A stretch of 64,000 bases of DNA. Source: an uncultured Paracoccaceae bacterium (lineage in GTDB: Bacteria > Pseudomonadota > Alphaproteobacteria > Rhodobacterales > Rhodobacteraceae). Of the stretch, positions 10,230-33,497 are shown one piece after another (the first letter of the stretch is position 1; each line of letters begins with the position of its first letter). The stretch covers positions 1 to 64,000 of the forward strand of contig CANMIX010000016.1 in assembly GCA_947497985.1 (NCBI GenBank), read 5' to 3'. A program made the position numbers and the translations under genes. The notes below the pieces were generated by a model that was not told the DNA's origin, searched no databases, and saw nothing but the letters and a program-made list of their open reading frames with translations.

Positions 10230-11894
10230 TTAAGCAGCGCTTTTCGTGCTGCAGAAGCACGAAGAGTAAACTTCCCGATCTGCCCGACTTAGGGCGAAGT
10301 CGAGCTGAGGTTTAATCATCGCCGCGCTCTTTGAATTGCCCATCGCGACATAACAATCGTAAAGGCCCTTTAGTGCCCAGACATTGTTCGGGTGGCGATT
10401 GGATCGGATGCATGTTTCGTCCATACCGAGATCGGCCTCATAAGCGGCAGCAGCTTCTTCGAAGTGCCCTTGTTCTAACAGCAGCGCACCAAGCGGATGC
10501 CGACTTGGCATCATCCAGGGCCACGGTTCATCATAGGGCAGGGCGTCTTCCAGTGCGACGGCTTTGCGCAGGTGATTAAAGGCGACATCGTAATTGCCAC
10601 GGTGGTACTCGACTTCCCCGTTTAACATTTCGCGCGCAACTTCGAGAATTTGAATGCAGGCAACAACATGAATGTGCCGTGTTTCTGGAACCTTTGCGGC
10701 TGCGGTCTCAAAGTTCTGGCGCGCTTGGTCGGCCTTATCGTGCTGTTTTAGCGCGGCATGTGCAATACCTTTGCCGTACCAGTTGAGCGCGGTTGTCATG
10801 GAATAGTCATCGGCATGTTCTGGCAGAGGATCATCAATCAAATCCTGCCAGCGACCAAAGCGGATCAACGCATGGGTTTTGATTGACATGTACCCTTCTA
10901 ACCAATCGGCCATGGGAGGATCTTCACAACGGATCAGCTCATCAGGGATTGTTTTCATCATACCTTCAGCGGCTTCCATCGCTGGACGGAATTGACCAAG
11001 GAACATCGCACCGTAGAGTTTGAAGTGATAGTTGTGTACGCGGTACATAGAATAGAAATTCATCGCACCGGATTTTTCCCAATAGATCTCGTCGGCAATG
11101 ATCCCTTTTTGGTTCCACGTAACGACGTCTTGATAATTGCCGCAAAGCACGTCGATATGGGTTGCCATATGGGCCAGGTGGCCAGCAGAAGGTACCATCT
11201 CACGCAGCTCATCGGCATAACGCAAAGCAACTTCGGGGACTGCAGACATCTCCATAAGGTGGATGTAGAGGTGCAAAAGTCCGGGGTGACGAGCAGGGCC
11301 AGCAGCCTCAACTTTGGCGATACCCTCTTCCAAAACACGACGACATTCTAAGGTGTCGCCTGCTGGGTTTGGTTCACCCGTACGTGGGTCCCACATTTGC
11401 CACGGTGTTCTGTTCATCATCGCTTCGGCGAATAATGTCGCTACATCAGAATCGTCAGGAAATGTAGTGTAAACGTTCCGCATTTCATTCGCATATGCGG
11501 CGGACCAAGTGTAAAGATCGGGAACCGGCTCATTCGACTGGTAGCGACTTTCCAATGCTACGATCAACGCTTTCTCAATATCTGTCGCGCCATCCATTGC
11601 CACCTTGGCCTTTTCGATAGCCGCTCGAGATTTTACAAGCGTCTCTTGCACTTGTTCGGGCGTGAATAGCTCCCATGGTTTGTTGTAGTTCGGTCCAATG
11701 ATATAGGCCAATCCCCAATGGGCCATCGCACAGTTCGGATCAGCCTTCAGTGCGTGTTCAAAGCAAACGGATGCCTCTTCATGATGATATCCAAAAATCC
11801 AATTCAAACCACGGTCAAACCATTTTTGTGCCTCGGCTGAAGATGTTGTGATTGGGCGGCTATAGGCCCCTAGGTCGTAAGGATAATCCAGCAT
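10230..11894 (-). CDS. Large tetratricopeptide-repeat protein
   Basis: A 554-residue soluble protein without a signal peptide. It begins with TPR-type sequence (AEAQKWFDRGLNWIFGYHHE then EASVCFEHALKADPNCAMAH) and has further repeat units at ~380-410 (YGKGIAHAALKQHDKADQAR), ~430-460 (GNYDVAFNHLRKAVAL), ~480-500 (GHFEEAAAAYEADLGM) and ~515-535. The middle section carries an MATHIDVLCGNYQDV motif. Its role is unknown; it may be a scaffold or an assembly factor. Its promoter carries operator S1, shared with the nitrile hydratase, TRAP and aldoxime dehydratase 2 units. Confidence 0.75.
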   Translation of the reverse strand: MLDYPYDLGAYSRPITTSSAEAQKWFDRGLNWIFGYHHEEASVCFEHALKADPNCAMAHWGLAYIIGPNYNKPWELFTPEQVQETLVKSRAAIEKAKVAMDGATDIEKALIVALESRYQSNEPVPDLYTWSAAYANEMRNVYTTFPDDSDVATLFAEAMMNRTPWQMWDPRTGEPNPAGDTLECRRVLEEGIAKVEAAGPARHPGLLHLYIHLMEMSAVPEVALRYADELREMVPSAGHLAHMATHIDVLCGNYQDVVTWNQKGIIADEIYWEKSGAMNFYSMYRVHNYHFKLYGAMFLGQFRPAMEAAEGMMKTIPDELIRCEDPPMADWLEGYMSIKTHALIRFGRWQDLIDDPLPEHADDYSMTTALNWYGKGIAHAALKQHDKADQARQNFETAAAKVPETRHIHVVACIQILEVAREMLNGEVEYHRGNYDVAFNHLRKAVALEDALPYDEPWPWMMPSRHPLGALLLEQGHFEEAAAAYEADLGMDETCIRSNRHPNNVWALKGLYDCYVAMGNSKSAAMIKPQLDFALSRADREVYSSCFCSTKSAA

Positions 11895-11914
11895 AAAAAG
11901 CTCTTCCTTTTTTG

Positions 11915-11929
11915 TTCTGTATTGTGGAA
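11915..11929 (-). promoter_or_regulatory. Operator S1, putative IclR-type palindrome
   Basis: On the minus strand the site reads TTCCACAATACAGAA, 20 bp upstream of the TPR start. It matches the perfect palindrome S2 (TTCCGTAATACGGAA) in 12 of 15 positions. Confidence 0.65.
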
Positions 11930-12032
11930 TTATTTTCCATTTTTTTTGATATCGGTGCGCAAAGCAAGAACTTTCTTGATGGATTGCAAAAAAATGAAAT
12001 CACTTTCCACATTGCGGAACGCAAAGGTCAAG

Positions 12033-13478
12033 TTATGCTTTGGCTGTGTCCGGTGCACTAAATTTGGGCAGCGTTCGCCCCAACCCATCTTGGACCAAAG
12101 CTGACTCTAAACTACGCGAGAATCTCAAAAGCTTGGCGTCTGAATGGCGTGGGCCAACGATTTGGATGCCGAACGGCATAGCTTGATTGTCCAAACCGCA
12201 GGGAAGTGTCACAACCGGGCTTCCGGTCAAAGACAAGGCCCAGGTAATCGCATACCAAGCGTAATATTCTTTCAATGGCTTATCATTGATCGCCTTGGGA
12301 TGATTGTCCCCCAATGGAAAAGGTGAAACCGAAGTGGCAGGGCAAATGAGGTAATCCACTTGATCGAAAATCGCCTGAAAACGGCGATAGATCTGCGTAT
12401 GCGCCGCGTCAGCACGCGCTGTATCCGCTAGGCTCAGCGATTTGGCCTCTAGGATATTGTTTCGCACATTTTGCCCAATCATATCGGGTTGGCTTTCCGC
12501 CAGCTCCCCGTAAGCAGCATAAAGGCTTTCCGCCCTTAGCACGCGAAAGACCTCGGCTGCGTCTGATAAATCAACATCCAGAGCAACCGCTGTTTTGAAA
12601 TGTTTATTGATGATCGGTTGGCGGGCCTTAAAAAGCGCGGCGATCTCACTATCGACTTCCGCGACACCCAAACCAGTTGAAAACCCGATACGTGAATGTG
12701 CCAAATCTTCAATTGCATGGAAGTCCGCATACTCAATATCCAAATTGGGAGAGCAAAGTGGGTCGCGGGCATCAAAGCCGGAAATCGCGGACAACATAAG
12801 CGTGAGATCTTCTACACTGCGTGCCATCGGCCCATCCGTCCAAAGGTGCGAAAACCCCGAGACATGGCTGCGCGATGGAACGATACCCGGTGACGGGCGC
12901 ATGCCTACAATTCCACAAAAGGAGGCCGGAATTCGCAAGCTTCCACCAAGATCGGATCCTGATGCAAGCGGGGCCATATTACTGGCCAAGCCCGCCGCTG
13001 AGCCCCCAGAGGAGCCGCCGGAAGTGAGGGTTGATTTGTACGGATTACCCGTTGCACCGAACACGAGATTGGAGGTGTTGGCGCCTGCGCCAAACTCTGG
13101 TGTGTTAGTTTTACCCAAAACAATTGCACCAGCGGCGCGTAAGCGTTCGACGATAATGTCGTCATGATCCGGCACATGGGTCTCAAAGCATCGACTGCCA
13201 AAGGTTGTACGCAATCCTTTGGTCCGGCTTAGATCTTTGACCAGAACTGGCAACCCGTGCAACGGTGGTAAGGCATTGCCCGCCTGCACCATGTGATCCG
13301 CTATTTTCGCTTCGCTGCGGGCATCCTCAAAGTTGGTGGTAATCACCGCATTTACGAGCGGGTTCCGCTCTTCAATGCGAGCGATACAGGCTTCGAGCAA
13401 TGCGCTTGGCGTCAAATCACGAGCCCCAATTTGACGGCGTGCTTCGGCAGCACTCAATTCTGCAGGTGTATTTATCAA
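12033..13478 (-). CDS. Amidase (amidase-signature family), copy 1
   Basis: A 481-residue amidase-signature hydrolase converting amides to carboxylate and ammonia. The Ser-cisSer-Lys triad is visible: K81 in LPVLVKDLS, cis-Ser S156 in the glycine-serine loop GGSSGGSAAG, and nucleophile S180 in GSDLGGSLRIPAS. It begins with a TTG codon overlapping the stop of the nitrile hydratase alpha gene, so it is translated from the same operon. It is the expected second enzyme after nitrile hydratase. No signal peptide, hence cytoplasmic. Confidence 0.92.
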   Translation of the reverse strand: MINTPAELSAAEARRQIGARDLTPSALLEACIARIEERNPLVNAVITTNFEDARSEAKIADHMVQAGNALPPLHGLPVLVKDLSRTKGLRTTFGSRCFETHVPDHDDIIVERLRAAGAIVLGKTNTPEFGAGANTSNLVFGATGNPYKSTLTSGGSSGGSAAGLASNMAPLASGSDLGGSLRIPASFCGIVGMRPSPGIVPSRSHVSGFSHLWTDGPMARSVEDLTLMLSAISGFDARDPLCSPNLDIEYADFHAIEDLAHSRIGFSTGLGVAEVDSEIAALFKARQPIINKHFKTAVALDVDLSDAAEVFRVLRAESLYAAYGELAESQPDMIGQNVRNNILEAKSLSLADTARADAAHTQIYRRFQAIFDQVDYLICPATSVSPFPLGDNHPKAINDKPLKEYYAWYAITWALSLTGSPVVTLPCGLDNQAMPFGIQIVGPRHSDAKLLRFSRSLESALVQDGLGRTLPKFSAPDTAKA

Positions 13479-14098
13479 AGGCCTTCTTTGGTCAAAGCAG
13501 GGACCACTCCAATCATACTGTCACGAGTCACAAGTTCTGCAAGTTGCTCCTCGCACCAGCCTTCTGTTCCCTCTGGGCGTTTAGGCACAACAAGATAGCG
13601 CATATCGGCGCTACTGTCATGCACGCGCACTTCGACTGTTTCGGGCAGGGTGGTGCCAAATTCAGCAAGAACTTTTCGCGGGTTTTGAACTACATCTGAT
13701 CTGTAGGCGCGGCTTTTGTACCAATCGGGGGGCAACCCAAGAAGGGGCCACGGATAGCACGAGCATAAGGTGCAAACGACAACATTATGCACTGCGTCAG
13801 TGTTTTCCAAGGCGATCAAATTCAGCCAAGTAGGCTCTAACCCGATGGATTTCGCCGCAGCCGTTGCATCGCGCCGCATGAGGTCTAGATAGGCCGGATC
13901 GGACCAGGCTTTTGCCACCATGCGTGCGCCATTATGTGGTCCGCGATCATCCATCATTTGATAGGTTTTATGCAATTCTGCATGCATGATTACGCCCTTC
14001 TCGATCAGAAGCTCACGCAAGGCCACCTCTAATAATCGGTATTCGGTAAAGGGGCCGTCTTCTTCATCTGGCTGATTGGGATGGGGGTGATCATGCAT
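13475..14098 (-). CDS. Nitrile hydratase alpha subunit, cobalt type
   Basis: A 207-residue catalytic subunit. The metal-binding motif VCTLCSCYPWPLLGLPP is complete. The CTLCSC form with Thr is the one associated with Co(III) enzymes, whereas Fe enzymes have Ser. Two of its cysteines are normally oxidised post-translationally. The C-terminal RYLVVPKRPEGTEGW block is typical. It hydrates nitriles to amides with the beta-type subunits encoded just upstream. The ATG at 14098 overlaps the preceding stop by one base (TGATG). The thiocyanate hydrolase gamma subunit is homologous, so the true substrate could differ. Confidence 0.9.
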   Translation of the reverse strand: MHDHPHPNQPDEEDGPFTEYRLLEVALRELLIEKGVIMHAELHKTYQMMDDRGPHNGARMVAKAWSDPAYLDLMRRDATAAAKSIGLEPTWLNLIALENTDAVHNVVVCTLCSCYPWPLLGLPPDWYKSRAYRSDVVQNPRKVLAEFGTTLPETVEVRVHDSSADMRYLVVPKRPEGTEGWCEEQLAELVTRDSMIGVVPALTKEGL

Positions 14099-14388
14099 CA
14101 GTTGTCGTGCTCCAGCCAATGTTCGAAAATCTCAACCTCGAGCGTATCGAGAAGGGCTCCGGTATAATCGGGCCAAATCTTTTGCATGGGCAGCCGTACC
14201 CGATAAAGCGGCACGGCCGGTTGGCCATCTCGGCGGTATGCCAGCTCTTCAGGGTTCGCAAAACTGCCGCAATAGCGTTCAATTTCCCCCGTGAGGCCAC
14301 GGGTATAAAAAGGCGTGCGGCAATGCCCAATTGGGTAGGCGTCGCGAATGCGCACCTTATCGCCGGCTTTGAACAAAGGATCAGCCAT
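14098..14388 (-). CDS. Nitrile hydratase beta subunit, C-terminal half as separate gene
   Basis: A 96-residue protein equal to the C-terminal SH3-like half of nitrile hydratase beta. It has FKAGDKVRIRDAYPIGHCRT, PFYTRGLTGEIERYCG and YRVRLPMQKIWPDYTGA. In classical two-subunit enzymes this is fused to the N-half; here it is a separate gene overlapping betaN by eight bases and touching alpha. The layout equals that of thiocyanate hydrolase (scnB-scnA-scnC) and of the split toyocamycin nitrile hydratase. The start at 14388 is taken because MADPLFKAGD aligns with the domain start. Confidence 0.85.
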   Translation of the reverse strand: MADPLFKAGDKVRIRDAYPIGHCRTPFYTRGLTGEIERYCGSFANPEELAYRRDGQPAVPLYRVRLPMQKIWPDYTGALLDTLEVEIFEHWLEHDN

Positions 14389-14713
14389 CAGAAGCGAGCC
14401 GCGCACGCACGGCTTCGACACGTGCACCGATTTCGGCGTCTGTCACGATACCGCGCTCCAGCATGATCTGAGTCATGGCCCAGATCCATTGTTCATAATA
14501 GGATAGGCGCCGGTATTTCTCTTCGCCCAGCCCTTCGACCGCGCGGCGTAGCTCATCTACCCGCAGCAGCCCCTTGGTGGCCAACAATTCACGCACCGCA
14601 TGCACCCGTTTTTCCCAAGGTGCATAGTCATGTTCATCAGGGGCGAAGGGTTCGCACAACACTCCGCCCAAGTCATGAACGCCGCGGTAATCGGTAAGCG
14701 ATTTGTGGGCCAC
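14381..14713 (-). CDS. Nitrile hydratase beta subunit, N-terminal half as separate gene
   Basis: A 110-residue protein matching the helical N-half of nitrile hydratase beta: YRGVHDLGGVLCEPFAP, then WEKRVHAVRELLATKG, and RRLSYYEQWIWAMTQIMLE with GIVTDAEI. It starts at a GTG that overlaps the enoyl-CoA hydratase stop by one base. Small activator proteins of cobalt nitrile hydratases are homologous to this domain, so an additional chaperone role cannot be excluded. Its position at the head of betaN-betaC-alpha argues for a structural subunit. Confidence 0.82.
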   Translation of the reverse strand: MAHKSLTDYRGVHDLGGVLCEPFAPDEHDYAPWEKRVHAVRELLATKGLLRVDELRRAVEGLGEEKYRRLSYYEQWIWAMTQIMLERGIVTDAEIGARVEAVRARLASDG

Positions 14714-15462
14714 TAAGATTGCCTCCGTTTTTCGCGTGCGTCTTTGACAGCGCGTTGATAGTCTAAAATTCGACCCCTAAGGCCCGGGCGTCCTGCCGTT
14801 GCCACCACAGAGGCGATGTCTTGGGCACGCGTGTCAACCACAGTTATGCTGCGCATGTGCTGTGTGCTGAACGTTGACATTTGGGTCGTGCGCGCAGCCA
14901 GCCTTTCAATGCTTTTGGGCCACTCCGCTTGATCCGCGATTTGCGTCGCCAAGCCTATTGCCTTAGCCTCCTGGGCGGGTACGGTACGCCCATCTAACAG
15001 AATATCTAATGCGGCATCTTTACCAATCAGACGTTCAAGGCGGCGTGTTCCCAAAGCGAGCTCAAAATTCCACCCTGGAAACCGCAGCTTGGCCTCAGGC
15101 GCAGCAAGGCGGTAGGTGCAGGCCACAAATAAATCAGCACCTGCGCCGATGATATGCCCCTGTGCCAAAGCGATTGTAGGGAAGGGCGCGTGATAAACAG
15201 CCTGCAACATGGTCTCAATACGTAAGAACCGCCAAAGGAGGTCTGCATCCGACAGCTCGCCCACATCCGACAGGTCAAAACCCGCGCAAAAGTTTTTACC
15301 CTCTCCTTTGATCACAGCCAAACGCACGGAACTCGCGGAGGTAATCGCCGAATAGATTGCCTCGGCTATGCCCAAGGACAAAGCGTTTGAGGCCTTCGGG
15401 CGGTTAAGCGTTAGGGTTAGAACACCGTCATCAAGCGTAGTGGTGACAACGGGCGCAGTCAT
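14713..15462 (-). CDS. Enoyl-CoA hydratase/isomerase family protein
   Basis: A 249-residue crotonase-fold protein. The N-terminal DGVLTLTLNRPKASNAL and the oxyanion-hole segments (VIKGEGKNFCAGFDLSD; LAQGHIIGAGADLFVACTYR) are present. Of the two usual catalytic acidic residues, the position after the second oxyanion loop is not clearly conserved, so the exact reaction is open. It overlaps the CaiB stop by four bases and precedes nitrile hydratase. Acids released by amidase may be processed as CoA esters here; that is inference. Confidence 0.82.
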   Translation of the reverse strand: MTAPVVTTTLDDGVLTLTLNRPKASNALSLGIAEAIYSAITSASSVRLAVIKGEGKNFCAGFDLSDVGELSDADLLWRFLRIETMLQAVYHAPFPTIALAQGHIIGAGADLFVACTYRLAAPEAKLRFPGWNFELALGTRRLERLIGKDAALDILLDGRTVPAQEAKAIGLATQIADQAEWPKSIERLAARTTQMSTFSTQHMRSITVVDTRAQDIASVVATAGRPGLRGRILDYQRAVKDAREKRRQS

Positions 15463-16619
15463 ACGGCGGCTTTCGCTGTCGGTGCGGTGTTCAGTGCACC
15501 CAAGACCGCTTCAGTGTCGCCCCCCAAGATCGGCGAGGTCTTGCCAATTGGATTGGGTTTCCCGTCAAAGATGAGCGCTGATCCGAAGGTTTTGGTTTCC
15601 ACGCCGTTGGGCAAAGTCAGATCTTGAACATAGCCCATATGTGCCACTTGAGGATCTGCCAATGCTTGGGAATATGTATTGATGGGGCTTGATGGAACGC
15701 CGGTTGCCGCAAAAGCATCCAGCCAATATTGGGCGGGCTGGGTTGCAAAAATCTTCTCTAGGATGACCAATAGTTCCTGTTGGTTGGCGGCTCTTTGGGT
15801 CGGGTTTGCAAAGCGGTCTTCGTTTACAAGATCTTGCCGCCCAACAACCTCACAGACCGAAGCCCATAGTTTATTATTACCCGCTGCCATCCCAAAATAT
15901 CCATCCTGCGCCTTGAAGGCCTGATAGGGGGCGTTGCGTGGATGGGCGGATCCCAATTTTCGCGGATCTTTTTCGGTGCCAAAATATTCGCTGGTTTGTA
16001 GCGCGCCAATCGCAAGGGTTGCACCTAGCATTGCGACATCAATATGCGTTCCCTGACCTGTTTCCTTTGCGCTGTGAAGTGCGGACACAAGGCCATATGC
16101 GCCGTATAATCCGGATACGAAATCACACAAGGGAACGCCGCATTTTACAGGTGCTCCACCTGGTTCGCCTGTAACGCTCATGACGCCAGCCATTGCCTGC
16201 ATCGTTAAGTCAAATCCTCCTTCACGCGAACGTGGACCGGATTGGCCGAATGCTGAGATAGAGCAGTATATAAGCTGTGGTTTCAATTTGGACATCTCTT
16301 TGTATCCGATCCCGTTGCGATCCATCACGCCAGGGCGGAAGTTCTCGATCACGGCATCCGCAGATAGGATCAGATCACGCGCGGCCTGCACGCCTTCATC
16401 TGACTTCAGATCAAGCACGATAGATTTTTTCCCACGGTTGATTGAAGCAAAGTTTTGCGAATATCCATCTGAAATGGGTGGCCAAGACCGCATTGCATCA
16501 CCCTGAGCTCGCTCGACTTTGATCAGATCGGCCCCCATGTCTGCCAGCAGCATCCCACAAAACGGCCCAGCGGCCACCTCACAAAATTCAATGATTTTAA
16601 TATCTTGAAGAGGTCGCAT
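15459..16619 (-). CDS. CaiB/BaiF-family CoA-transferase
   Basis: A 386-residue family III CoA-transferase. Diagnostic motifs are IIEFCEVAAGPFCGMLLADM then GADLIKVER near the N-terminus, INRGKKSIVLDLKSDEG, and AVIENFRPGVMDRNGIGY. The Asp that forms the CoA-acyl anhydride lies near GFDLTMQAMAG. It moves CoA between carboxylic acids. The start at 16619 has AGGACA upstream; a frame to 16637 lacks one. It is the first large gene of the operon CaiB-ECH-betaN-betaC-alpha-amidase, all with overlapping ends. Confidence 0.87.
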   Translation of the reverse strand: MRPLQDIKIIEFCEVAAGPFCGMLLADMGADLIKVERAQGDAMRSWPPISDGYSQNFASINRGKKSIVLDLKSDEGVQAARDLILSADAVIENFRPGVMDRNGIGYKEMSKLKPQLIYCSISAFGQSGPRSREGGFDLTMQAMAGVMSVTGEPGGAPVKCGVPLCDFVSGLYGAYGLVSALHSAKETGQGTHIDVAMLGATLAIGALQTSEYFGTEKDPRKLGSAHPRNAPYQAFKAQDGYFGMAAGNNKLWASVCEVVGRQDLVNEDRFANPTQRAANQQELLVILEKIFATQPAQYWLDAFAATGVPSSPINTYSQALADPQVAHMGYVQDLTLPNGVETKTFGSALIFDGKPNPIGKTSPILGGDTEAVLGALNTAPTAKAAV

Positions 16620-16770
16620 ATTTTGTCCTTTTGACACTACATCGCTAGACGCTGGTCAAGACTGACCAGCATAAAAACGGTTGGGATTCACTTTTCAGGC
16701 GGCGAAATGGCCCGTGTGGGATTTTGAACAGGGGCACGGCGAAGTCGGCCCGAATTTTGCTTATGACTAT

Positions 16771-16971: not shown

Positions 16972-16986
16972 TTCCGTAATACGGAA
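16972..16986. promoter_or_regulatory. Operator S2, perfect 15-bp palindrome
   Basis: TTCCGTAATACGGAA is an exact inverted repeat around a central A. A degenerate second copy (AATCATAATACAGAA on the minus strand) lies at 16952-16966, directly before the -35 box. IclR proteins often bind such palindromes, and an iclR gene begins about 200 bp away at 17181. Confidence 0.72.
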
Positions 16987-17180: not shown

Positions 17181-18005
17181 TTACATCTCGGGTTGATCTA
17201 ATGCGTCCCAGACCGAGCCCGTGCAACCCATGCTAGCAGAAATATTCTCAGCGTATTCGATCAACTGTGGTGCGACAGCTTTGAGCTGTTTTTCAGAAAC
17301 ACGGCTTGCAGGGGCTGACAGGCCTATGGCACTGACGACGCGCCCTAACGCACAGGATATTGGTGCACTTACCCCTATCACATCCTTACGCCATTCGCCT
17401 TGGTTCACGGCATATTTTTGCGCGCGGATTATGCTGGCATGAGTCGAGAACGCTTCTGGCTGCACAATTGTCTTTTCCGTGTGGGCGGTCGCTCCAGCCA
17501 TGACATTGTGGATGACATCATCAGTTTGATAGGCCAGCATCGCCTTTCCTGTTGCGGTGCAATAGGCTGGCGCGCGTCCGCCTAGGTGCGTGTAGGCACG
17601 GACCGGTTCACGGCTTTCAATCTTGTCAATGTAGAGCACTTGGTTCTCGAACAGCTCTGACAAATGAACCGTTTCGCCGGTCGCTTCAGCAAGCATCTGC
17701 ATATATGGCCTCGCAACGTCACGCACGCTAACGCGAGAGATGACCTGACTTCCCAGCTCCCACACCTTCAGGGACGCGGTGTAAAGAGTGTCATTGGGTT
17801 TACGGACATAGCCCAACGTCATGAGCGTTTGCAGTAGGCGATGGACATTGCTTTTACCGAGGTCAGCCTCATTGGCCAACTCTGTGATCCCCATCGGCGA
17901 GTTGTTTTTCGAAAGAATTTCTAGAAGGCTGAACGCTTTTACAACTGCTTTATCCACGGGTTCTTTCCACAATTTAAAAGTCCCTAAGTAGGGTTGAATT
18001 CGCAT
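17181..18005 (-). CDS. IclR-family transcriptional regulator
   Basis: A 274-residue regulator with an N-terminal winged helix (KAFSLLEILSKNNSPMGITE, then LANEADLGKSNVHRLLQTLM) and a C-terminal IclR effector domain (VHLSELFENQVLYIDKIESR; GRAPAYCTATGKAMLAYQ; VSAPISCALGRVVSAIGLS). ATG 18005 is preferred to TTG 18014 for its ribosome site. It sits between the nitrile hydratase operon and the amidase 2/TRAP operon and is the best candidate to bind the S1-S4 palindromes. The effector may be an acid or amide of the pathway. Confidence 0.9.
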   Translation of the reverse strand: MRIQPYLGTFKLWKEPVDKAVVKAFSLLEILSKNNSPMGITELANEADLGKSNVHRLLQTLMTLGYVRKPNDTLYTASLKVWELGSQVISRVSVRDVARPYMQMLAEATGETVHLSELFENQVLYIDKIESREPVRAYTHLGGRAPAYCTATGKAMLAYQTDDVIHNVMAGATAHTEKTIVQPEAFSTHASIIRAQKYAVNQGEWRKDVIGVSAPISCALGRVVSAIGLSAPASRVSEKQLKAVAPQLIEYAENISASMGCTGSVWDALDQPEM

Positions 18006-18145
18006 TTTTGTCAATCTTCTAGATCGTGGTCAACGGTGCGGTTGGCGCTGATGGCTTGCGGCTCTCCCAAAGGAATTTGAGATATATCAAAGCGTATCCT
18101 GTGAACATGGCCACCCCGGAAGTGTCCTTTGCGGCAGAGGCGGCC

Positions 18146-19537: not shown

Positions 19538-19676
19538 TGATTTCCTCACGCCACGGGACAAGCCGCAGTTGTCATTTGGTGTATGTTTAGAGAAAGGTGT
19601 TTGAAAGAGGTCGGCGGTCCGAACTAACTGCCCAAGTATCCTAAAGGCAAACTGTGTTCGGGCCGCCGGACTGTGG

Positions 19677-22721: not shown

Positions 22722-22736
22722 TTCTGCATTGTGGAA
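22722..22736 (-). promoter_or_regulatory. Operator S3, putative IclR-type palindrome
   Basis: Minus strand TTCCACAATGCAGAA, upstream of the dctPQM-amidase 2 unit. A minus-strand TTGACA lies at 22700-22705, the same relation to the palindrome as at S2. Confidence 0.65.
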
Positions 22737-22895
22737 TAGATCACATCATCTCTCCAGCTTTTGTGAGAAATAGTGCAAATTTTTTGCACAACTGATCTAT
22801 GTTGCAGCGAGAATAAGCTGAGTTGATGCAAGGTGAATTGCTAAGATAGCAAATCCAGCTTGTTGATTGGATGTGCAGACCCTTTCCCATCACCA

Positions 22896-26609: not shown

Positions 26610-26637
26610 TTGCCGCTCCTCCGTTTTTGACGCGCCG

Positions 26638-27660
26638 TTATTCCGCCACGAGGCCGAATTCACGGTAGGCGCGCATCGCACCTGGGTGGATCAGGTCAGG
26701 ATTGGTGCGTGCGATTTCGGAAATTGTTTCTGGCTCCCAGATCTTCGCGATCGCGCTGTATTCGCCAATCACGGGGCCCGATTGCAGCCAAAGCTTTGTG
26801 AACTCATAAGCGGTCTCTTCGGGAAAGGTTGCGTGCGCAGAAATCAACGCGACATTCCCAAAGCTAGTGACCTCTTCAGTTTGGCCTGTGAAAGTTCCAG
26901 CCTCTACGGTCTGTACCTTAAACGGTGCGCCGGTCGCATCGATGTATTCTTGGATCTTCGCCGGATCTACATCCACATAGTGAAAGGGGCGGCCAGAGCT
27001 TTCCAGCGTCTTGAACGGACCCGCCTCAAGCGTGTAACTGAAATCGAAATTGGAATGCGCGGCCAAGGTCCCGATATCTGAACGGCCATCGATCATCGCG
27101 TCAATATTCTGGCTTGGCCCAAGCGCGTCAAAGGATGCCAAGCCGGATGAAATGCCCCAAGCGTCAAGCATCATCTTTTGATGCATGCCCCATTCATTCT
27201 GGGTTAACAAGCCAACGCCGACACGCTTGTCTTCAAAATCCTCGACGCTTTTGATCTCATCGTCGAAAGTCACAAATAGGTTGGTTGTGTTGCTCAGTGC
27301 TCCGATGATTTTGAAGTCGCTCGCGGCCTCCATCGGTTGCGGAAAGAACGGTGCAACGCCATTCACGGCGGCCCATTCGACCACCATTCCGGAGCCAATC
27401 AAAGTATTCTCCCAAAGGTCAGGTTGCGACGCAAGATAGCGGACGTTGTAAGTGAACCCAGGAGTTTCGACAGCCTTGGGCGCGACCTTGTCCGTGAAAT
27501 CACTTGCGTAGTTTTGCATCGTGGCAATCGCCAAATAAGGGCCGGATCCTGAAGGCGACATGAGCAAATCAATCTCGACGGGATCCGCAGAGGCCGATGT
27601 CGCAAAACCGAGAGTGAGCGCTACGGCAGAGGCTGCGAACTTATACGTGGGCTGGAGCAT
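26638..27660 (-). CDS. TAXI-family TRAP solute receptor
   Basis: A 340-residue periplasmic receptor. The signal peptide is MLQPTYKFAASAVALTLGFA with a likely cleavage after ASA. Mature motifs DKVAPKAVETPGFTYNVRYL and VGVGLLTQNEWGMHQKMMLD fit TAXI-like receptors, though it is divergent from canonical TAXI sequences. It heads the TAXI-TRAP-nitrilase-TauE operon and is divergent from the lysR gene at 27759; the shared box lies between them. Confidence 0.78.
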   Translation of the reverse strand: MLQPTYKFAASAVALTLGFATSASADPVEIDLLMSPSGSGPYLAIATMQNYASDFTDKVAPKAVETPGFTYNVRYLASQPDLWENTLIGSGMVVEWAAVNGVAPFFPQPMEAASDFKIIGALSNTTNLFVTFDDEIKSVEDFEDKRVGVGLLTQNEWGMHQKMMLDAWGISSGLASFDALGPSQNIDAMIDGRSDIGTLAAHSNFDFSYTLEAGPFKTLESSGRPFHYVDVDPAKIQEYIDATGAPFKVQTVEAGTFTGQTEEVTSFGNVALISAHATFPEETAYEFTKLWLQSGPVIGEYSAIAKIWEPETISEIARTNPDLIHPGAMRAYREFGLVAE

Positions 27661-27717: not shown

Positions 27718-27752
27718 GGAAAAGCATATACTTTCTGTTTAACGTATAGGAG
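27718..27752. promoter_or_regulatory. 35-bp box L1 in the TAXI/lysR divergent promoter
   Basis: The segment beginning GGAAAAGCATATA and ending TAGGAG aligns without gaps to a second 35-bp segment at 30624-30658, with 27 identical positions by eye. Both lie just right of a minus-strand gene start. The inverted ATA...TAT elements suit a LysR site. Probable autoregulation plus control of both the nitrilase operon and aldoxime dehydratase 1. Confidence 0.6.
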
Positions 27753-27758
27753 TAAACT

Positions 27759-28670
27759 ATGGATGTGAATCTGCGCGCCCTTCGCTACTTTGTCATGACT
27801 GCAGAAACAGGCACGATTTCCGAAGCTGCGCTGAAGTTGAATATTTCCCAACCCAGCGTTTCTGCCGCGATTCAAAAGCTTGAGGAAATACACGGTGTGC
27901 AGTTGTTTATTCGCGTGCCCACAAAGGGCATTCGTCTAACTCCAGACGGAATGCGTTTTCTGGAGCGGGCGCGGTTGTTGCTCGCGCAATCAGATGAATT
28001 CCAGCACGATGTAAGTGCGATTTCGCAATCTCTGTCAGGTGAGATAACAATAGGGTCCTTCGTGAATCTCACCCCAGCTATTACCGCCGAACTCGTTGGC
28101 GCGTTTCACGCTAAGTATCCGGCAATAAATGTGAATATTAAGGATTTGGATCAATCCGATATTTTGCGTGAACTCGACACGGGGCAAATCGAACTTGCGA
28201 TCACATTTGATCTTGCTCTGCAAACCGGATTTAACTCTTCTGTCGTGGCGACCTTGCAACCGCGCGCGGTTCTTCCGTCAGAGGACCCGCTGGCCAATGA
28301 CGCCCGCGTATCCATTCATGACGTGGCACAGCGCCCCTTTATTTTGATGGATCTGCCGCACACGCGTGACTATTTCTTTGGGCTTTTGGCAGATCAAAAA
28401 ATCGTGCCAAGCGTGGCATTCCGCTGCAAATCTTTTGAAGCTGTGCGCGCGTTTGTTGCGAGCGGCCTTGGCGTCTCGCTTTTGAACATCCAACCCAGGA
28501 CGGATCAAACATATATTGGGCGCCGCGTTGTTATGCGGCCGATCATTGAACCGTTGCGCCCGCTCAAAGTTACGATACTGAGAAACAATCGGCTGCGAAT
28601 GCGGCCGGCTTTGAATCTATTTGTAGACTTCGCAACCTCTCTCATTCCGGCACTGGCTGACCCGCTATAA
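27759..28670 (+). CDS. LysR-family transcriptional regulator
   Basis: A 303-residue LysR protein. The N-terminal winged helix reads LRALRYFVMTAETGTISEAA and LNISQPSVSAAIQKLEE; the effector domain follows from residue ~90 (GEITIGSFVNLTPAITAELV). It is divergent from the TAXI-nitrilase operon, the usual position for a LysR activator of its neighbour. The start follows TAGGAG by six bases. It likely responds to an aldoxime, nitrile or acid from this branch. Confidence 0.92.
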   Translation: MDVNLRALRYFVMTAETGTISEAALKLNISQPSVSAAIQKLEEIHGVQLFIRVPTKGIRLTPDGMRFLERARLLLAQSDEFQHDVSAISQSLSGEITIGSFVNLTPAITAELVGAFHAKYPAINVNIKDLDQSDILRELDTGQIELAITFDLALQTGFNSSVVATLQPRAVLPSEDPLANDARVSIHDVAQRPFILMDLPHTRDYFFGLLADQKIVPSVAFRCKSFEAVRAFVASGLGVSLLNIQPRTDQTYIGRRVVMRPIIEPLRPLKVTILRNNRLRMRPALNLFVDFATSLIPALADPL

Positions 28671-28682
28671 ATAGCGATTAGA

Positions 28683-28709: not shown

Positions 28710-28743
28710 TTAGGGGTCTCAAGTTACAAATGCGCCCTCCGCC

Positions 28744-29346
28744 TTAAGAGCGGGGAATATCCGCAAAACTATCCAATGCTTGGACCGCGCTCAGCCACGC
28801 ATTGATGTTGGGGAAGGGGCCGAGATCCAATTCGCCTTCATTGGCAACGGCGATGTAAGAGTAACAGGCAACATCTGCCAACGTTGCACGCTCACCCACC
28901 AACCATGTGCGGTTGTCCAAATGGTCCTCAATTAGCCTGAAGAGCTTCGCACTCCTGACCTCGGCCGCTTCGTAGTCTCCGGCCATTTTAAACAACTTGA
29001 TAAGCCGGGCCATGTTGGGGCCACGAAACATTTCACCCGCTGCAATCGCGAACCATTCGTGAACTTGCGCCTTCAAAACCGGATCACTGGGCATCCAGCC
29101 TTGCTCGGGAGCATACGTCTGCTCCAGATACTGAATGATTGCGATTGAATCGCGCACCGTTACATCACCGTCGACCAACGTAGGCACTTGACCCAAGGGA
29201 TTGATAGCCAAATATTCATCCCCCTGACGCTGCCCTTCCATTTCCATGACAGCAATAGTGTCAATCTCAATCCCCATCAATGACGCGGCAAGACGCACAC
29301 GATGACAGTGACCGGATTTTGGGACATCATAAAGTTGGATTGGCAT
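28744..29346 (-). CDS. Glutathione S-transferase family protein, second copy
   Basis: A 200-residue GST. The thioredoxin-like domain starts MPIQLYDVPKSGHCHRVRLA and contains NPLGQVPTLVDGDVTVRDSI with the cis-Pro and glutathione-binding residues. The helical domain ends with LVGERATLADVACYSYIAV. ATG 29346 has AAGGA upstream; the extension to 29382 has none. It follows aldoxime dehydratase 1 by ~170 bases on the same strand and may be co-transcribed, consistent with electrophile handling in this pathway. Confidence 0.87.
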   Translation of the reverse strand: MPIQLYDVPKSGHCHRVRLAASLMGIEIDTIAVMEMEGQRQGDEYLAINPLGQVPTLVDGDVTVRDSIAIIQYLEQTYAPEQGWMPSDPVLKAQVHEWFAIAAGEMFRGPNMARLIKLFKMAGDYEAAEVRSAKLFRLIEDHLDNRTWLVGERATLADVACYSYIAVANEGELDLGPFPNINAWLSAVQALDSFADIPRS

Positions 29347-29516
29347 CTTTTTGTTCCTTTTGATTGGTGTCATGAGGCCCAAAGGCAGGGCTTGAAACCC
29401 GAGCGAGGAATACCCCAGTCAATTGGCCATGCCTTTCTATATGTGTCCCACTTGGACTACCGGCCCGCATATATGCTGTGCGCTAAAGCGTGGAAGACAG
29501 GAGAAAACTCAGTTCC

Positions 29517-30569
29517 CTACTGATCGCCAGCATTGTTGGTGAAGTAAGGCAGCAAACCCGTATCAGGGTGGCAATTTATGTATTCGAACCTCACGTTCTC
29601 GTTCAAAACATAAATCTCGTGGTATGTGAGAAGCTGCAAATTTTCCTGATATTTCTTGCGCTCCGCAAGGGCACGGGTGTAAATCGCCAAATGCGTAGGG
29701 TGGTCATGTGCCCATCGCTCCAAATGCCCGTAGGTCAGGAAGATTCCCAAAGAATAAGCTTCTTTTAGAGCACTCCCATCGGCCTCGAGGCAAGTCACTT
29801 GGCGCAGGCTGCAACACCCTGTGGCCACGGGGTTTTCGCGCAAATACGCCATGCCCTTGTCCAGCTTGGGTTTTAGATTGGTCTCATAGCTTTTCAGTTG
29901 TTCTTCACCGCAATTGGCCCACGTCACACCGGAGCGAATAACGCAAAGTTGGCTTGGAATATCTGAGACTTTGATGTGCTTTCCTAGCGTGTTTCTCTTC
30001 GGGTCATATTGAAGCTCAACATTTTGCTCTGGGCCAAAATCATCATGGGCCGATGCGGAAAAACGATCCCGAGCCGCACCCCAATACCCACTCTCGGACA
30101 TCGGTTCAATTTTGGTCATCGGACAGGCAGAGACGCCGCGCAGGTATTCTTGAAACAGGTTCGTTTCCCGATAGGGTGGGGGTACTGAAAAGCTTTCGAA
30201 CCACAACCCGTGGCCGAGGGCCTCAGGATCATGAGCGGCCCACCACAGGTCGAATTTTTTCGACCAAGCCGTGTATCCATCCTCGCCTAACCAATAGCAA
30301 ACCGCCATTGCTGTGCTGTAACCCTGATCGTCCACAAAATCAGCGATGTCGTGGTGCTGAGGCAAGCCCACGCTCGAGAATACATCCTGTAGATAAATGA
30401 GAAAAGCCTCGAGGTTTTCTTTGCTGCTCTTTTTGCTCTGAAACCCCAACGTCGCAACGCGGATTGTCGAAACACCCTCTGGAACGCGGGAAGAATAACG
30501 CTGAATCACGGGCGTATGGTTAGCTGGCTTTTTCATGGGGAAAGTGCGGGGCATGTCGAACTGTGTCAT
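29517..30569 (-). CDS. Aldoxime dehydratase 1 (haem-dependent)
   Basis: A ~350-residue member of the phenylacetaldoxime dehydratase family, which removes water from aldoximes to give nitriles using haem b. Conserved pieces are SGYWGAARDRFSASAHD, LCVIRSGVTWANCG (Ser equivalent to the catalytic one), HPTHLAIYTRALAERKKYQE with the proximal-His motif, and TYHEIYVL with the distal His. The start is set at ATG 30569 (AGAGG upstream); ATG 30581 is an alternative. Box L2 lies 55 bp upstream. It is paralogous to the gene at 31378. Confidence 0.88.
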   Translation of the reverse strand: MTQFDMPRTFPMKKPANHTPVIQRYSSRVPEGVSTIRVATLGFQSKKSSKENLEAFLIYLQDVFSSVGLPQHHDIADFVDDQGYSTAMAVCYWLGEDGYTAWSKKFDLWWAAHDPEALGHGLWFESFSVPPPYRETNLFQEYLRGVSACPMTKIEPMSESGYWGAARDRFSASAHDDFGPEQNVELQYDPKRNTLGKHIKVSDIPSQLCVIRSGVTWANCGEEQLKSYETNLKPKLDKGMAYLRENPVATGCCSLRQVTCLEADGSALKEAYSLGIFLTYGHLERWAHDHPTHLAIYTRALAERKKYQENLQLLTYHEIYVLNENVRFEYINCHPDTGLLPYFTNNAGDQ

Positions 30570-30623
30570 TGGGCCTCTCATGGTAACTGCTTCCCACCTC
30601 CCATTAACCCGCTTCAACTATAG

Positions 30624-30658
30624 GGAAAAGCATATAAATACTGTATATAAAATAGGAG
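30624..30658. promoter_or_regulatory. 35-bp box L2 upstream of aldoxime dehydratase 1
   Basis: Second copy of the L1 box in the same orientation. Both begin GGAAAAGCATATA and share CTGT and ATAGGAG at matching positions. This ties aldoxime dehydratase 1 to the LysR that sits beside the nitrilase operon, 3 kb away. Confidence 0.6.
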
Positions 30659-31173
30659 GAACCTATATTTACTTATGACGGGGCGCATAAAGCGCAGGTT
30701 GGAAAAAATGTAACGACAGGGGCTACTGAAGTCCCTCAGCTGGTCACCGTAGGCTTCCGTAACTAGGCATTCTTGCGCCGTGGAATGACCGCATAGGCAT
30801 TGCGTGCGTCTTTGGCATTTGCAGGTGTCGCAGGTCCCATCCCCGGTGGCACTGCCAAGCTTGTATCGCCACATCACTGTAAGCCTATTGGCATTCCTCC
30901 TTGCCACAAGTTTGCGCCTCCCACACCATCAAATCATCAAATCATCAAACCAAATCGATATTGAACCGCGCTATTTTAGGGCTTGGTTGCAGTCAGGCCA
31001 GTTCTTGGCCTTGTAAGTCGTAGCTACCAAACTGCTCATGGATGTCAGTTATATCGCTGATTTAAATAAAAAAAGTCCTCATGGTCGATTTATGAAACAA
31101 AGCCGTAGACTAATTTAGACATTTAAAAACTGTCAGAAGGTCGAAGGGCGATGTTGACATTTTTGGAATGCTA
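30659..31173. other. Non-coding spacer between the two aldoxime dehydratase genes
   Basis: About 510 bases without a convincing gene. Frames on both strands are Cys- and Ser-rich and match no family I know. It contains a short tandem repeat at 30927-30950 and, at its right end, the TTGACA of the S4 promoter (31154-31159). Confidence 0.5.
30927..30950. repeat. Three-copy 8-bp tandem repeat
   Basis: CATCAAAT, CATCAAAT, CATCAAAC follow each other directly. It is short and of no obvious function; a length-variable spacer is possible. Confidence 0.6.
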
Positions 31174-31188
31174 TTCCACAATATAGAA
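31174..31188. promoter_or_regulatory. Operator S4, putative IclR-type palindrome
   Basis: TTCCACAATATAGAA overlaps the expected -10 of a promoter whose -35 TTGACA lies at 31154-31159. It is 13 kb from the iclR gene but matches S1 in 14 of 15 positions, linking aldoxime dehydratase 2 to the nitrile hydratase regulon. Confidence 0.65.
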
Positions 31189-31220
31189 AATGATAAACGC
31201 GCTCACGTAGAGGAATTAAA

Positions 31221-31310: not shown

Positions 31311-31377
31311 GAGAACAGCCCCTCTTCTCTGCTGACGCAGTCGCACAGACCGCCTTTATCACCATTGGGGGTCGTAG

Positions 31378-32406
31378 ATGAATGGTGCCAAACCCACGCG
31401 CATTTACCCGACACGCAAGCCTGAAGGGCATTGTCCGGTCGTGCAAAGGTATTCCTCTTCGCTGGATCCTTCGGTGACTAAGGTGCGAGTCGTTTTATTT
31501 GGCCAGCAGGGCCAAGTAGGGGGCTTTCAAAGCCTTGCTCACCACCTCTTTGCGAGCCAAAACGCCCCGGATCATCGCGATGATGCACAGTATACTGATC
31601 CTCAAGGAATAGAGAATATACTCACTGTCGCGTATTGGCTTGATGCGACCAGCTACAACGCATGGCGCGACAGTTTTGATGCGTGGCTTGCAGAGCAAGA
31701 CCCGAAAGAACCAGATAAAGGTTATTGGCTTGAAACCTTCTCGGTGCCCACGCCTTACCGCGAAACTATCGCATTCAAAGAGTACCTTCGCGGTCTTTCG
31801 GCCTGCCCCTATTCCACAATCGAGCCGATTGAAGAAAGCGCCTATTGGGGTGCAGCCAGAGACCGCTTTGCTGCATCGGCCTATGATACCCTTGGGCCTA
31901 CCGATGATCGATGCCTCACCGCAGATACGGGTCGCGACACACGTGGGAAGCTCTTGCGCGTCACAGGTTTTCCAAAAAGCCTGTGCGTTATTCGATCTGG
32001 TGTCTCATGGGCGTCATGCGGCGCAGAGCAACTGGACAGTTATCAAAGAAACTTAGCCCCTAAACTCGACGCTGGTATGCAGTATTTGCGTGATAATCCC
32101 GCGGAAACTGGTTGTGCATCGCTTCGACAGGTCACCTATTTGAATGCCGACGGGAGCCGAGCACCGGAAGCGTTCTCTTTAGGGTTTTTCCTGAGCTTCA
32201 GCCACCTTGAGCAATGGGCTGAACACCATCCGTCTCACTTGGCTATCTATACAAGAGCGCTCGCCGAACGGAAAAAATATCAGGAAAATCTGGAGCTCAA
32301 AACTTACCACGAAATTTATGTTCTGAGTGACGATGCTGAGTTTTTATATTTAAACTGCCAACCCAGTACCGGGCTGCTCCCTTACTTTGAAAATAGTCAG
32401 GTCTAA
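31378..32406 (+). CDS. Aldoxime dehydratase 2 (haem-dependent)
   Basis: A 342-residue paralogue of the gene at 29517. Residues equivalent to those known in OxdRE are visible: S207 in CVIRSGVSW, H287 (proximal haem ligand) in HPSHLAIYTRAL, H311 (distal) in TYHEIYVL, and the Arg cluster in YWGAARDRFAAS at 161-163. It dehydrates aldoximes to nitriles in the cytoplasm. It is followed after two bases by the YeiH-type transporter and preceded by S4, so it belongs to the presumed IclR branch. Confidence 0.88.
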   Translation: MNGAKPTRIYPTRKPEGHCPVVQRYSSSLDPSVTKVRVVLFGQQGQVGGFQSLAHHLFASQNAPDHRDDAQYTDPQGIENILTVAYWLDATSYNAWRDSFDAWLAEQDPKEPDKGYWLETFSVPTPYRETIAFKEYLRGLSACPYSTIEPIEESAYWGAARDRFAASAYDTLGPTDDRCLTADTGRDTRGKLLRVTGFPKSLCVIRSGVSWASCGAEQLDSYQRNLAPKLDAGMQYLRDNPAETGCASLRQVTYLNADGSRAPEAFSLGFFLSFSHLEQWAEHHPSHLAIYTRALAERKKYQENLELKTYHEIYVLSDDAEFLYLNCQPSTGLLPYFENSQV

Positions 32407-32408
32407 TC

Positions 32409-33497
32409 ATGACAAAATACCGGCAAGCTGCGCACCTCATGCCGGGGGTGTTGATTTGTTTAATCGTTGCAACAGCAGCACGGTTTCTTTCAGATCACTA
32501 CGCCGCACCAACTATGCTATTTGCTCTTCTTCTGGGGGTCAGTCTGCACTTCCTGGTGGACGATGAAAAAGCTGCATCGGGAATAAGGTTCGCCGCCGCG
32601 GATCTGTTGAAAATGGGCGTTGCGCTGCTGGGCCTCAGAATTACGTTGGCTGACATCGGCGATTTGGGAGTTCAAACCATTGGTCTCGTTATTGGCGGCG
32701 TCGTCTTTACCATATCGATAGGGATCGCTATCTCGTTTTTGTTCGGAAAGAACATCAAGTTTGGCGTTTTGTCCGGCGGCGCGGTTGGCATCTGCGGGGC
32801 TTCGGCGGCTTTGGCCATTTCAGCTGTGTTGCCCGCATCTGAGACGAGAGAACGCGATACGGCTTTTATCGTGGTCGCCGTCACCACGCTATCCACAATT
32901 GCAATGATTGTTTATCCGATTTTGGGGCAAGCTTTGGGATTGGATGATCAGTACATCGGCGTGCTTTTAGGGTTAACAATTCACGATGTTGCGCAGGTTG
33001 TCGGAGCAGGTTTTTCCGTTTCAGAAGAGGCGGGCAACACCGCAACCCTCATAAAATTATTTCGCGTATCACTTCTTGTTCCGGTAATTATTATGATCTC
33101 ATTCGCGTTCCGTCGCCAAGCGGAGCAAGGCAACCGTAGTGGTGTCCCTTGGTTTGTCTGTGGGTTCGCAATCGCGATTATTATAAACAGTCTGGGCGTT
33201 CTGCCTGGACCTATCAGGGCGTTGTTCGCGGCAATATCAACATGGCTGTTGGTGATCGGCATTGTCGGGATTGGCATGAAAACTTCATTGAAAAACTTAG
33301 GCAAAGTCGGAGGTGCAGCGCTCGTCATTGTGTGTCTCGAAACGGTCCTGCTTTTTGCAGTAGCGGCATCCATCCTTGTGCTGTCACAACCAAATACGCC
33401 TGACATCATATCGCTAGGAAATATGCATTCCGAAATTGGGGCCTGCGGAATGGCGATCAGTGACGTGGTTCATGCAAGCCTCGGACCGAGTGACTGA
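32409..33497 (+). CDS. YeiH-family putative anion exporter
   Basis: A 362-residue membrane protein of the YeiH/UPF0324 family with about ten helices. Diagnostic stretches are LKMGVALLGLRITLADIGDL, GGAVGICGASAALAISAVLP and LTIHDVAQVVGAGFSVSEEA. Members are annotated as putative sulfate exporters, with little experimental proof. It is coupled to aldoxime dehydratase 2 by a two-base gap and is the second sulfur-anion-type exporter in the island. Confidence 0.83.
   Translation: MTKYRQAAHLMPGVLICLIVATAARFLSDHYAAPTMLFALLLGVSLHFLVDDEKAASGIRFAAADLLKMGVALLGLRITLADIGDLGVQTIGLVIGGVVFTISIGIAISFLFGKNIKFGVLSGGAVGICGASAALAISAVLPASETRERDTAFIVVAVTTLSTIAMIVYPILGQALGLDDQYIGVLLGLTIHDVAQVVGAGFSVSEEAGNTATLIKLFRVSLLVPVIIMISFAFRRQAEQGNRSGVPWFVCGFAIAIIINSLGVLPGPIRALFAAISTWLLVIGIVGIGMKTSLKNLGKVGGAALVIVCLETVLLFAVAASILVLSQPNTPDIISLGNMHSEIGACGMAISDVVHASLGPSD

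Follow-up and report, generated by a model that had tools for sequence, protein, structure and literature searches.

The 64,000-nt stretch of DNA analysed here (the window) belongs to an uncultured Paracoccaceae bacterium (assembly GCA_947497985.1, contig CANMIX010000016.1, positions 1–64,000) and carries an island of genes for the catabolism of aldoximes and nitriles. The island is likely the product of joining two modules for aldoxime catabolism, each also found on its own in other genomes: one follows an amide route (module A), the other a nitrilase route (module B). Its enzymes belong to known families, and the island is real, conserved and modular. In module A, the aldoxime dehydratase (Oxd) Oxd2 would dehydrate an aldoxime to a nitrile, a three-subunit cobalt nitrile hydratase (NHase) would convert the nitrile to an amide and amidase 1 the amide to an acid, which a CoA-transferase would turn into acyl-CoA; a crotonase-fold protein would then act other than by ordinary hydration. 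In module B, Oxd1 would form the nitrile, a nitrilase would hydrolyse it straight to the acid and a TauE-family protein is the likely exporter of the product.

Protein families were assigned to the open reading frames (ORFs) called in the window by Pfam and NCBIfam profile searches with curated cut-offs. The Dehydratase_hem family (PF13816, cut-off 25 bits) was recognized in Oxd1 (29517–30617, minus strand; 252 bits) and in Oxd2 (31378–32406, plus strand; 241 bits), two paralogues with 56% identity. The other island families found with Pfam are an NHase alpha subunit (265 bits), two amidases, a CN_hydrolase, a class III CoA-transferase and a crotonase, together with two importers of the tripartite ATP-independent periplasmic (TRAP) type, DctPQM and a second system with an NMT1_3 binding protein. 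The gene list given for this DNA in a first-pass annotation (two Oxds, an NHase, two amidases, a nitrilase, a CoA-transferase and two importers) is borne out by these assignments. The island is also present where that annotation placed it, except that its start at 10230 has to be moved back to 9441, where module A begins with the gene of a PpoB2-family protein whose family is also kept in a gammaproteobacterial copy of the module (L042).

Residues R183, S229, H333 and H309, located by alignment to a solved Oxd, are invariant in Oxd1, Oxd2 and all ten relatives aligned. We take them to correspond to the catalytic R178, S219 and H320 and to the haem-ligand H299 of OxdRE. Similarity to solved Oxds is modest, the best relative being a phenylacetaldoxime dehydratase (177 bits), and neither protein passes the OxdA equivalog model for aliphatic aldoxime dehydratases (NF050090; 203.4 and 188.2 bits, cut-off 600). 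The whole 4.19-Mb genome codes for only these two Oxds, both in the window and no more than 2.9 kb apart. With this genome counted, an Oxd above the Pfam cut-off was present in 2 of the 345 genomes sampled from the family and in 2 of the 18 genomes of the genus; given this rarity, the pairing is not due to chance.

Separate and fused modules and their promoter motifs

A scan of a genome collection with the Oxd alignment yielded nine loci in eight genomes, which makes nine genomes with the window. Fused islands are found in three of them: the window, isolate 4-2050-3Z (L034/L138) and the uncultured Pelagimonas 4-2027-3Z (G127, locus L035). In these genomes the module B cassette, 14.5 kb long in the window, lies between the genes of the CoA-transferase (CaiB) and Oxd2. 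Window positions 16640 to ~31154 occupy the place of ~1.06 kb of genome G358, where another IclR regulator is encoded. In L037, L039 and L040, module A has no module B genes separating IclR from Oxd2; L038, a contig of 5.4 kb, shows this in part. The same order is seen in L042, a gammaproteobacterial metagenome-assembled genome (MAG) with PpoB2-TPR-amidase-alpha-betaC-betaN-crotonase-CaiB-IclR and a divergent Oxd. Its identity to the window is 45–73% for nine genes and 28% for PpoB2, and the YeiH and catalase genes are absent from this locus. Module B stands alone in Citreicella C3M06, where it is spread over two contigs, and G358 (L037 and L041) has both modules on different contigs.

In genome searches, which covered the genomes other than that of L038, the module B nitrilase (>80% identity) was present in three of six whole genomes, exactly those with Oxd1, and the best nitrilase match in the other three had an E value of 8.9e-4. 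The crotonase (at least 48% identity) was found in four of five genomes searched, the best match in the Oxd1-only Citreicella having 30% identity. Two Oxds were counted in the genome of L034 and one in each of five others. The two parallel routes proposed by the first-pass annotation stand at the gene level: Oxd2 is accompanied by NHase and amidase in loci that lack module B, and Oxd1 is accompanied by the nitrilase in the one genome found to carry module B alone. Synteny in other genomes, put forward there as a check, proved to be conserved for the modules, the order of module A being kept as far as the gammaproteobacterial MAG. The marine habitat assumed for the bacterium is inferred only from the named relatives (Pelagimonas and Citreicella).

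Two conserved promoter motifs suggest that the modules are organized in two regulons. The near-palindrome TTCYRYATTGTGGAA is a putative IclR-type operator and GGAAAARCATATAMWTWCT a putative LysR box, the pairing of each motif with its regulator being deduced from gene order. In the window, the IclR-type motif fits the pattern perfectly before the TPR gene (11915–11930, plus strand; TTCTGTATTGTGGAAT), before Oxd2 (31173–31188, minus strand) and before DctP (22722–22737, plus strand; fused islands only), and with two mismatches before CaiB (16972–16986, minus strand). The TPR site has 0–1 mismatch in six of seven genomes and 3 in L042, while the Oxd2 site has 0, 1, 2, 2, 2, 3 and 3 mismatches in the seven intact loci and 1 before an Oxd2 remnant in G127. 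Upstream of CaiB the motif is found solely in the three fused islands (2, 0 and 1 mismatches), in contrast to 6 mismatches in three cassette-less module A loci, where the IclR gene lies 113–120 bp from CaiB (the gap of 15 bp in L042 was not scored). Upstream of DctP there are 0, 2 and 3 mismatches in the fused islands, compared with 6 and 6 in two stand-alone modules B. Six stretches from the LysR side that served as controls differ from TTCYRYATTGTGGAA by 4–6 mismatches.

The LysR box occurs in two perfect copies in the window, between the genes of LysR and the TAXI-kind binding protein (27718–27736, plus strand) and upstream of Oxd1 (30624–30642, plus strand). The number expected at no more than 3 mismatches is 0.10, and 1 of 100 shuffles had two. 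It is kept in six promoter regions of four genomes, being recognizable in the LysR-Oxd1 gap of G358 and Citreicella and at both places of L034. The IclR-type operator would join the promoters of Oxd2-YeiH, of the run from CaiB to amidase 1 and of TPR-PpoB2, and the LysR-type box would join Oxd1 with the TAXI-TRAP-nitrilase-TauE operon. The branches carry different shared motifs, with the exception that DctPQM of module B, which is placed elsewhere in the fused island, has there the module A motif and would be under the IclR-type operator. Two further sequences were evaluated: TGGAATGCTATTCCA was rejected as a motif, since its 5 occurrences, with 2.1 expected, do not clearly stand out from chance (7 of 100 shuffles reached that number), and TTCTRYATTGTGGAAT was found 7 times with 1.8 expected (1 of 100 shuffles as high). 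Note that a copy of the IclR-type motif with one mismatch also lies inside a helix-turn-helix-cupin gene (35327–35342), with weaker copies similarly placed in some related loci; this perhaps merely reflects conservation of the gene.

In the Oxd tree, Oxd1 and Oxd2 each form one supported clade, the two clades are sisters (99/97) and the L042 Oxd lies outside. The IclR of the fused island (55–59% identity to that of cassette-less module A) and its amidase 2 (51–52% to the module A amidases) likewise have module A paralogues, in trees whose roots are insecure. On the simplest reading, a module-A-like ancestor would have been duplicated, one of the copies would have acquired a nitrilase, and the two would later have fused in a single lineage. 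The reason for the duplication, a question raised by the first-pass annotation, is in part answered by the sister relationship of the Oxds and the fusion of two modules. The window was scanned for tRNAs and Rfam families and has none of either, hence no sign of integration at a tRNA site.

Several points weigh against a fusion of two separately regulated modules. The nine genomes are partly close kin, so that conservation is partly inheritance. Both motifs were derived from window sites, which makes the window matches circular, and the tests are provided by the orthologues, which are related, and by the negative promoters. Three-mismatch sites are matched by shuffled sequences for the Oxd2 promoters of G358 (19 of 200) and L042 (4 of 200), the TPR site of L042 (11 of 200) and the DctP site of G127 (6 of 200), and the four mismatches to TTCYRYATTGTGGAA in the LysR-Oxd1 gap of G358, a control, are equalled by 15 of 200 shuffles. 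The L042 Oxd sits on a long branch and its placement is unsure. Amidase 2 and its IclR may be remains of a second module-A-like set and not parts of module B; a partly lost set of this kind would also explain their presence. Finally, Oxd2 of G127 is reduced to a 55-residue remnant (L028:5854–6018) with the rest of the fused island kept, and the amide branch persists there without its own Oxd. That the NHase-amidase part seems useful without its own Oxd, and that similarity to solved Oxds is modest, would suit an island for general scavenging of nitrile and amide nitrogen in which the Oxds are haem proteins of other function. Such a role is very unlikely, considering that the four OxdRE positions are kept throughout the relatives and that Oxd retains its module A partners into a gammaproteobacterium. 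The fusion of two aldoxime-catabolic modules is the reading followed below.

The amide branch

The genes from CaiB to amidase 1 form a six-gene run on the minus strand in the order CaiB, crotonase, betaN, betaC, alpha and amidase 1, with overlaps of 4, 1, 8, 1 and 4 nt that make it probable that they constitute one translationally coupled unit. Amidase 1 (12033–13478; PF01425, 334 bits) is of the amidase-signature family and has its signature motifs. It is followed downstream, on the same strand, by the gene of the TPR protein (10230–11894; 554 aa with Pfam TPRs), which is 95–98% identical in related Rhodobacteraceae islands and 69% in L042, and then by that of the PpoB2/DUF2182-family membrane protein (9441–10214; PF09948, 92 bits), found at the same place in module A loci and possibly involved in metal delivery. 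The TPR protein was rejected as a specific NHase partner: TPR homologues are present in 42 of 398 genomes of the phylum (own genome included), and no NHase gene is annotated near those on the two plasmids inspected. On the plus strand, a putative exporter of the YeiH family is encoded 2 bp 3' of Oxd2 (32409–33497; PF03601, 219 bits; TIGR00698, 127.5 bits, below the cut-off of 232.6). The gene that follows YeiH codes for a catalase (33579–35039; 646 bits) with 96–97% identity in related Rhodobacteraceae islands, perhaps tied to haem or peroxide stress.

The first-pass annotation of a nitrile hydratase holds for the alpha subunit (13475–14098; PF02979), which exceeds the cut-off of TIGR01323 (252.4 bits, cut-off 249.85) and carries the metal claw VVCTLCSC, whose CTLCSC motif is that of Co-type NHases. 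What has to be amended is the build of the enzyme, a split three-subunit NHase of the Co-type and not one with a single beta. Its beta subunit is encoded by two ORFs, the free-standing N-terminal half betaN (14381–14713; PF21006) and the free-standing C-terminal half betaC (14098–14388; PF02211), whose ATG overlaps the betaN stop by 8 nt. Each half reaches ~62 bits with the full-length beta model TIGR03888, below its cut-off of 152.2; betaN scores 61.6 bits with this model versus 20 bits with the accessory-protein model. In thiocyanate hydrolase and toyocamycin nitrile hydratase, too, an alpha of NHase type is accompanied by a beta in separate N and C parts. Identity as thiocyanate hydrolase was rejected: the island alpha passes the NHase cut-off but not that of the thiocyanate hydrolase gamma-subunit model TIGR03887 (217.2, cut-off 291.45).

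The split beta was also rejected as a novelty, because all 20 near alphaproteobacterial relatives compared (L095–L114) have separate beta ORFs in the order betaN-betaC-alpha. They were drawn from the 29 best non-window loci of a class-wide search matching 142 genomes, leaving aside L081–L083, L086, L088–L091 and L093, and are a set of near relatives, not a random sample. The same order is found on Planktothrix and Streptomyces plasmids, and betaC-alpha-betaN on Rhizobium and Polymorphobacter plasmids (L045–L048). The small subunits on these plasmids are mostly annotated as SH3-like domain-containing protein. The module A gene set is found in none of the 20 relatives within the 5–16.5 kb around each; L113 alone has distant homologues of crotonase (31%) and CaiB (28%), ~5 kb off. 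The split NHase is a widespread known kind, and its gene company is what is particular. A tree of 46 alpha sequences places the six from module A, that of the gammaproteobacterium among them, in one clade (100/98) and 14 sequences from other NHases of the genus in another (100/100); nine of these 14 have one beta ORF (two are the same gene) and five were not determined. The other NHase of the window genome, on contig 7, has a single beta ORF.

Enoyl-CoA hydratases use two catalytic glutamates. Neither is present in the crotonase-fold protein (14713–15462, minus strand; PF00378) aligned with PDB 5zai, which speaks against its first-pass label of enoyl-CoA hydratase: one glutamate is replaced by Asp and the other by Gly. 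The same two residues are found in nine of nine subfamily rows, comprising the window, four Rhodobacteraceae orthologues, L042, two plasmid homologues and PDB 3isa, a putative enoyl-CoA hydratase/isomerase that is the nearest solved relative (165 bits). An ordinary enoyl-CoA hydratase is unlikely on the strength of these replacements. The AcuN/AcuK pair handles acrylate with a CaiB protein and a hydratase. If the crotonase were a true hydratase, module A might degrade an alpha,beta-unsaturated nitrile via acryloyl-CoA-like intermediates in the same manner, and the CaiB and crotonase genes do overlap and are co-conserved. The loss of both glutamates, common to five orthologues including L042, weakens the acrylate-type reading and makes it improbable.

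The CaiB protein (15459–16637, minus strand; PF02515, 402 bits) has a candidate for the catalytic Asp of class III CoA-transferases, placed by motif at Asp172 in LCDF. This motif is present in the CaiB of the window, L026, L030, L039, L040 and L042, and the Asp also in L043 and L044. A plasmid search with the crotonase matched 979 records; three viewed among the 20 matches listed have a CoA-transferase gene adjacent or one gene off. Also encoded nearby are a Rieske oxygenase in L043 and L118 and a cysteine dioxygenase in L044. CaiB and this kind of crotonase may be a recurring unit for other acids.

The nitrilase branch and its importers

Module B genes lie on the minus strand except that of the LysR regulator (27759–28670, plus strand; PF03466/PF00126), which in G358 and Citreicella is encoded next to Oxd1 and divergently from it. 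The nitrilase (23649–24677; PF00795, 146 bits) has E43, K128 and C162, matching the Glu-Lys-Cys catalytic triad of nitrilases, and the active-site motif CGENGNP; it does not pass the Nit6803 nitrilase model TIGR04048 (209.7, cut-off 502.6). Its gene adjoins that of the TauE/SafE-family exporter (22896–23642; PF01925), as in G358 and Citreicella. The second importer consists of a fused TRAP permease (24714–26681; TIGR02123 over cut-off) and a TAXI/NMT1-kind solute-binding protein (26638–27660; PF16868, 73 bits; TIGR02122, 76.9 bits, below the cut-off of 84.35). A glutathione S-transferase family protein (28744–29382; GST_N/GST_C) is encoded between LysR and Oxd1. The DctPQM importer is formed by the solute-binding DctP (21553–22611; PF03480), the small permease DctQ (20963–21493; PF04290) and the large permease DctM (19677–20960; PF06808). 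Amidase 2 (18146–19561; PF01425, 357 bits), the paralogue of amidase 1, and its IclR (17181–18014; PF01614/PF09339; 94% identity to G127 and L138) are found only in the three fused islands. The components common to all five genomes with module B (window, L034, G127, G358 and Citreicella) are Oxd1, LysR, nitrilase, TauE and DctPQM; in the parts of G358 examined, neither the glutathione S-transferase nor the second TRAP system was found. TauE and YeiH are absent from the four annotated plasmid Oxd loci viewed (L052, L115, L116 and L117; a fifth record, L051, is unannotated), which does not favour them as general Oxd partners. These plasmid loci code for a Phenol_MetA_deg protein (L115, L116) or have ATP-binding cassette (ABC) importer genes (L052, L117).

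In the two stand-alone module B loci, DctP, DctQ and DctM are encoded downstream of Oxd1 on the same strand, with gaps of 85 and 110 bp, and LysR is divergent. The solved proteins closest to DctP, of 83 matched, are a binding protein for 2,3-dihydroxypropane-1-sulfonate (DHPS; 141.5 bits, 30%) and the isethionate-binding IseP (112.7 bits, 28%), the next scoring 75.5 bits; another DctP of the window scores 22 and 43 bits with these two. The sulfonate site of IseP comprises Arg156, Arg177, Asn217, Ser95, Asn98 and Tyr153, and the two arginines are the residues by which TRAP binding proteins bind a carboxylate or sulfonate (PMC11668362). DctP keeps Arg156, Arg177, Ser95, Asn98, Trp200 and His244 and does not keep Asn217, Tyr153 and Asp77, three residues that the DHPS protein also lacks. 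The five module B DctPs are identical at 13 of 13 compared positions. As both anion-binding arginines are kept, a neutral aldoxime is an unlikely ligand. The placement of DctPQM behind Oxd1 in stand-alone module B makes an anionic substrate of Oxd1 the most likely compound to be imported. The natural substrate of Oxd1 is thus probably anionic, a lead rather than a demonstration, and possibly sulfonated. At 30% identity the specificity is not settled, and the compound taken up by DctPQM could differ from the substrate of Oxd1.

These features bear on the idea of a single pathway with redundant enzymes, in which both Oxds and both nitrile systems would share an ordinary neutral aldoxime (indole- or phenylacetaldoxime) for more flux or range. 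It is compatible with the identical catalytic residues of the two Oxds and with the use of aryl and indole aldoximes by known Oxds, as described in a review (PMC8955678). We regard it as unlikely in view of the different promoter motifs of the branches, the separate occurrence of the modules and the anion-type TRAP protein beside Oxd1 in stand-alone module B. Moreover, no catabolic set for phenylacetate or indoleacetate is found in the 40 window ORFs scanned with Pfam (~1–5.3 kb, 51.2–64 kb and the rest of the genome were not scanned).

Proteins of the TauE/SafE and YeiH types have roles in the export of sulfonated acids or sulfite. The positions of TauE beside the nitrilase and of YeiH after Oxd2 would fit such an export. 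A more specific scheme is proposed tentatively and with low confidence: this marine-type lineage would catabolise anionic, perhaps sulfonated, aldoximes and nitriles, DctPQM importing a small sulfonated or carboxylated aldoxime (e.g. sulfoacetaldoxime), Oxd1 converting it to a cyano-acid and the nitrilase to a di-acid (e.g. sulfoacetate), with TauE/SafE and YeiH exporting the acid or sulfite.

Further TRAP systems are encoded in the window outside the island. One (38274–41997) comprises an NMT1_3 binding protein and a DctM-DUF3394 permease of 870 aa; this permease adjoins module A in L027, L034 (partial) and L040, with 95–97% identity, and is in two pieces in L039. At 45839–51181, DctP and DctM TRAP genes are followed by those of LamB/YcsF and two carboxyltransferase-domain proteins, presumably a 5-oxoprolinase-type (PxpABC) set with its importer.

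Relation to known clusters and significance

Aldoxime-nitrile clusters of Rhodococcus, Pseudomonas, Bacillus OxB-1 and Bradyrhizobium have been reviewed, and Oxds are treated there as enzymes of plant aldoximes with use in synthesis (PMC8955678). The island resembles these clusters in that Oxd adjoins NHase and amidase, or nitrilase. The four example clusters named in that review have one branch each, whereas the island has both; the NHases typed there in Oxd strains are Fe-type, in contrast to its three-subunit Co-type enzyme; and CaiB-crotonase, the TPR protein and TRAP importers are extras of the island (PMC8955678). A Bradyrhizobium barranii plasmid (L117) is similar in having Oxd beside a nitrilase (48.6% identity; CGENTNP, one change from CGENGNP), but it carries ABC importer genes, not DctPQM, and its Oxd is in a separate clade. 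The Rhizobium plasmid pMK-2 (L116) shares Oxd, NHase and amidase; unlike the island, it codes for an NHase accessory protein, a cobalt transporter and a Phenol_MetA_deg protein, and no CoA-transferase or crotonase is annotated in the 15 kb viewed. A literature search, which reached few subscription journals, found no paper that describes this arrangement, Oxd in Rhodobacteraceae, Oxd with a TRAP transporter, an NHase/enoyl-CoA hydratase/CoA transferase/amidase operon or SH3-like NHase subunits.

With module A, the aldoxime pathway gains a conserved CoA-linked end, and a three-subunit NHase is placed among aldoxime genes. The modules in their separate and fused states constitute a natural series that shows the addition of a further branch and the passage of a transporter to another promoter motif. 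The tie by gene order between an Oxd and an importer of anion-binding type narrows the search for substrates from all aldoximes to charged ones. If the lineage does use anionic, perhaps sulfonated, aldoximes, this would be an undescribed link of oxime and nitrile nitrogen to the marine organosulfonate or dicarboxylate pool.

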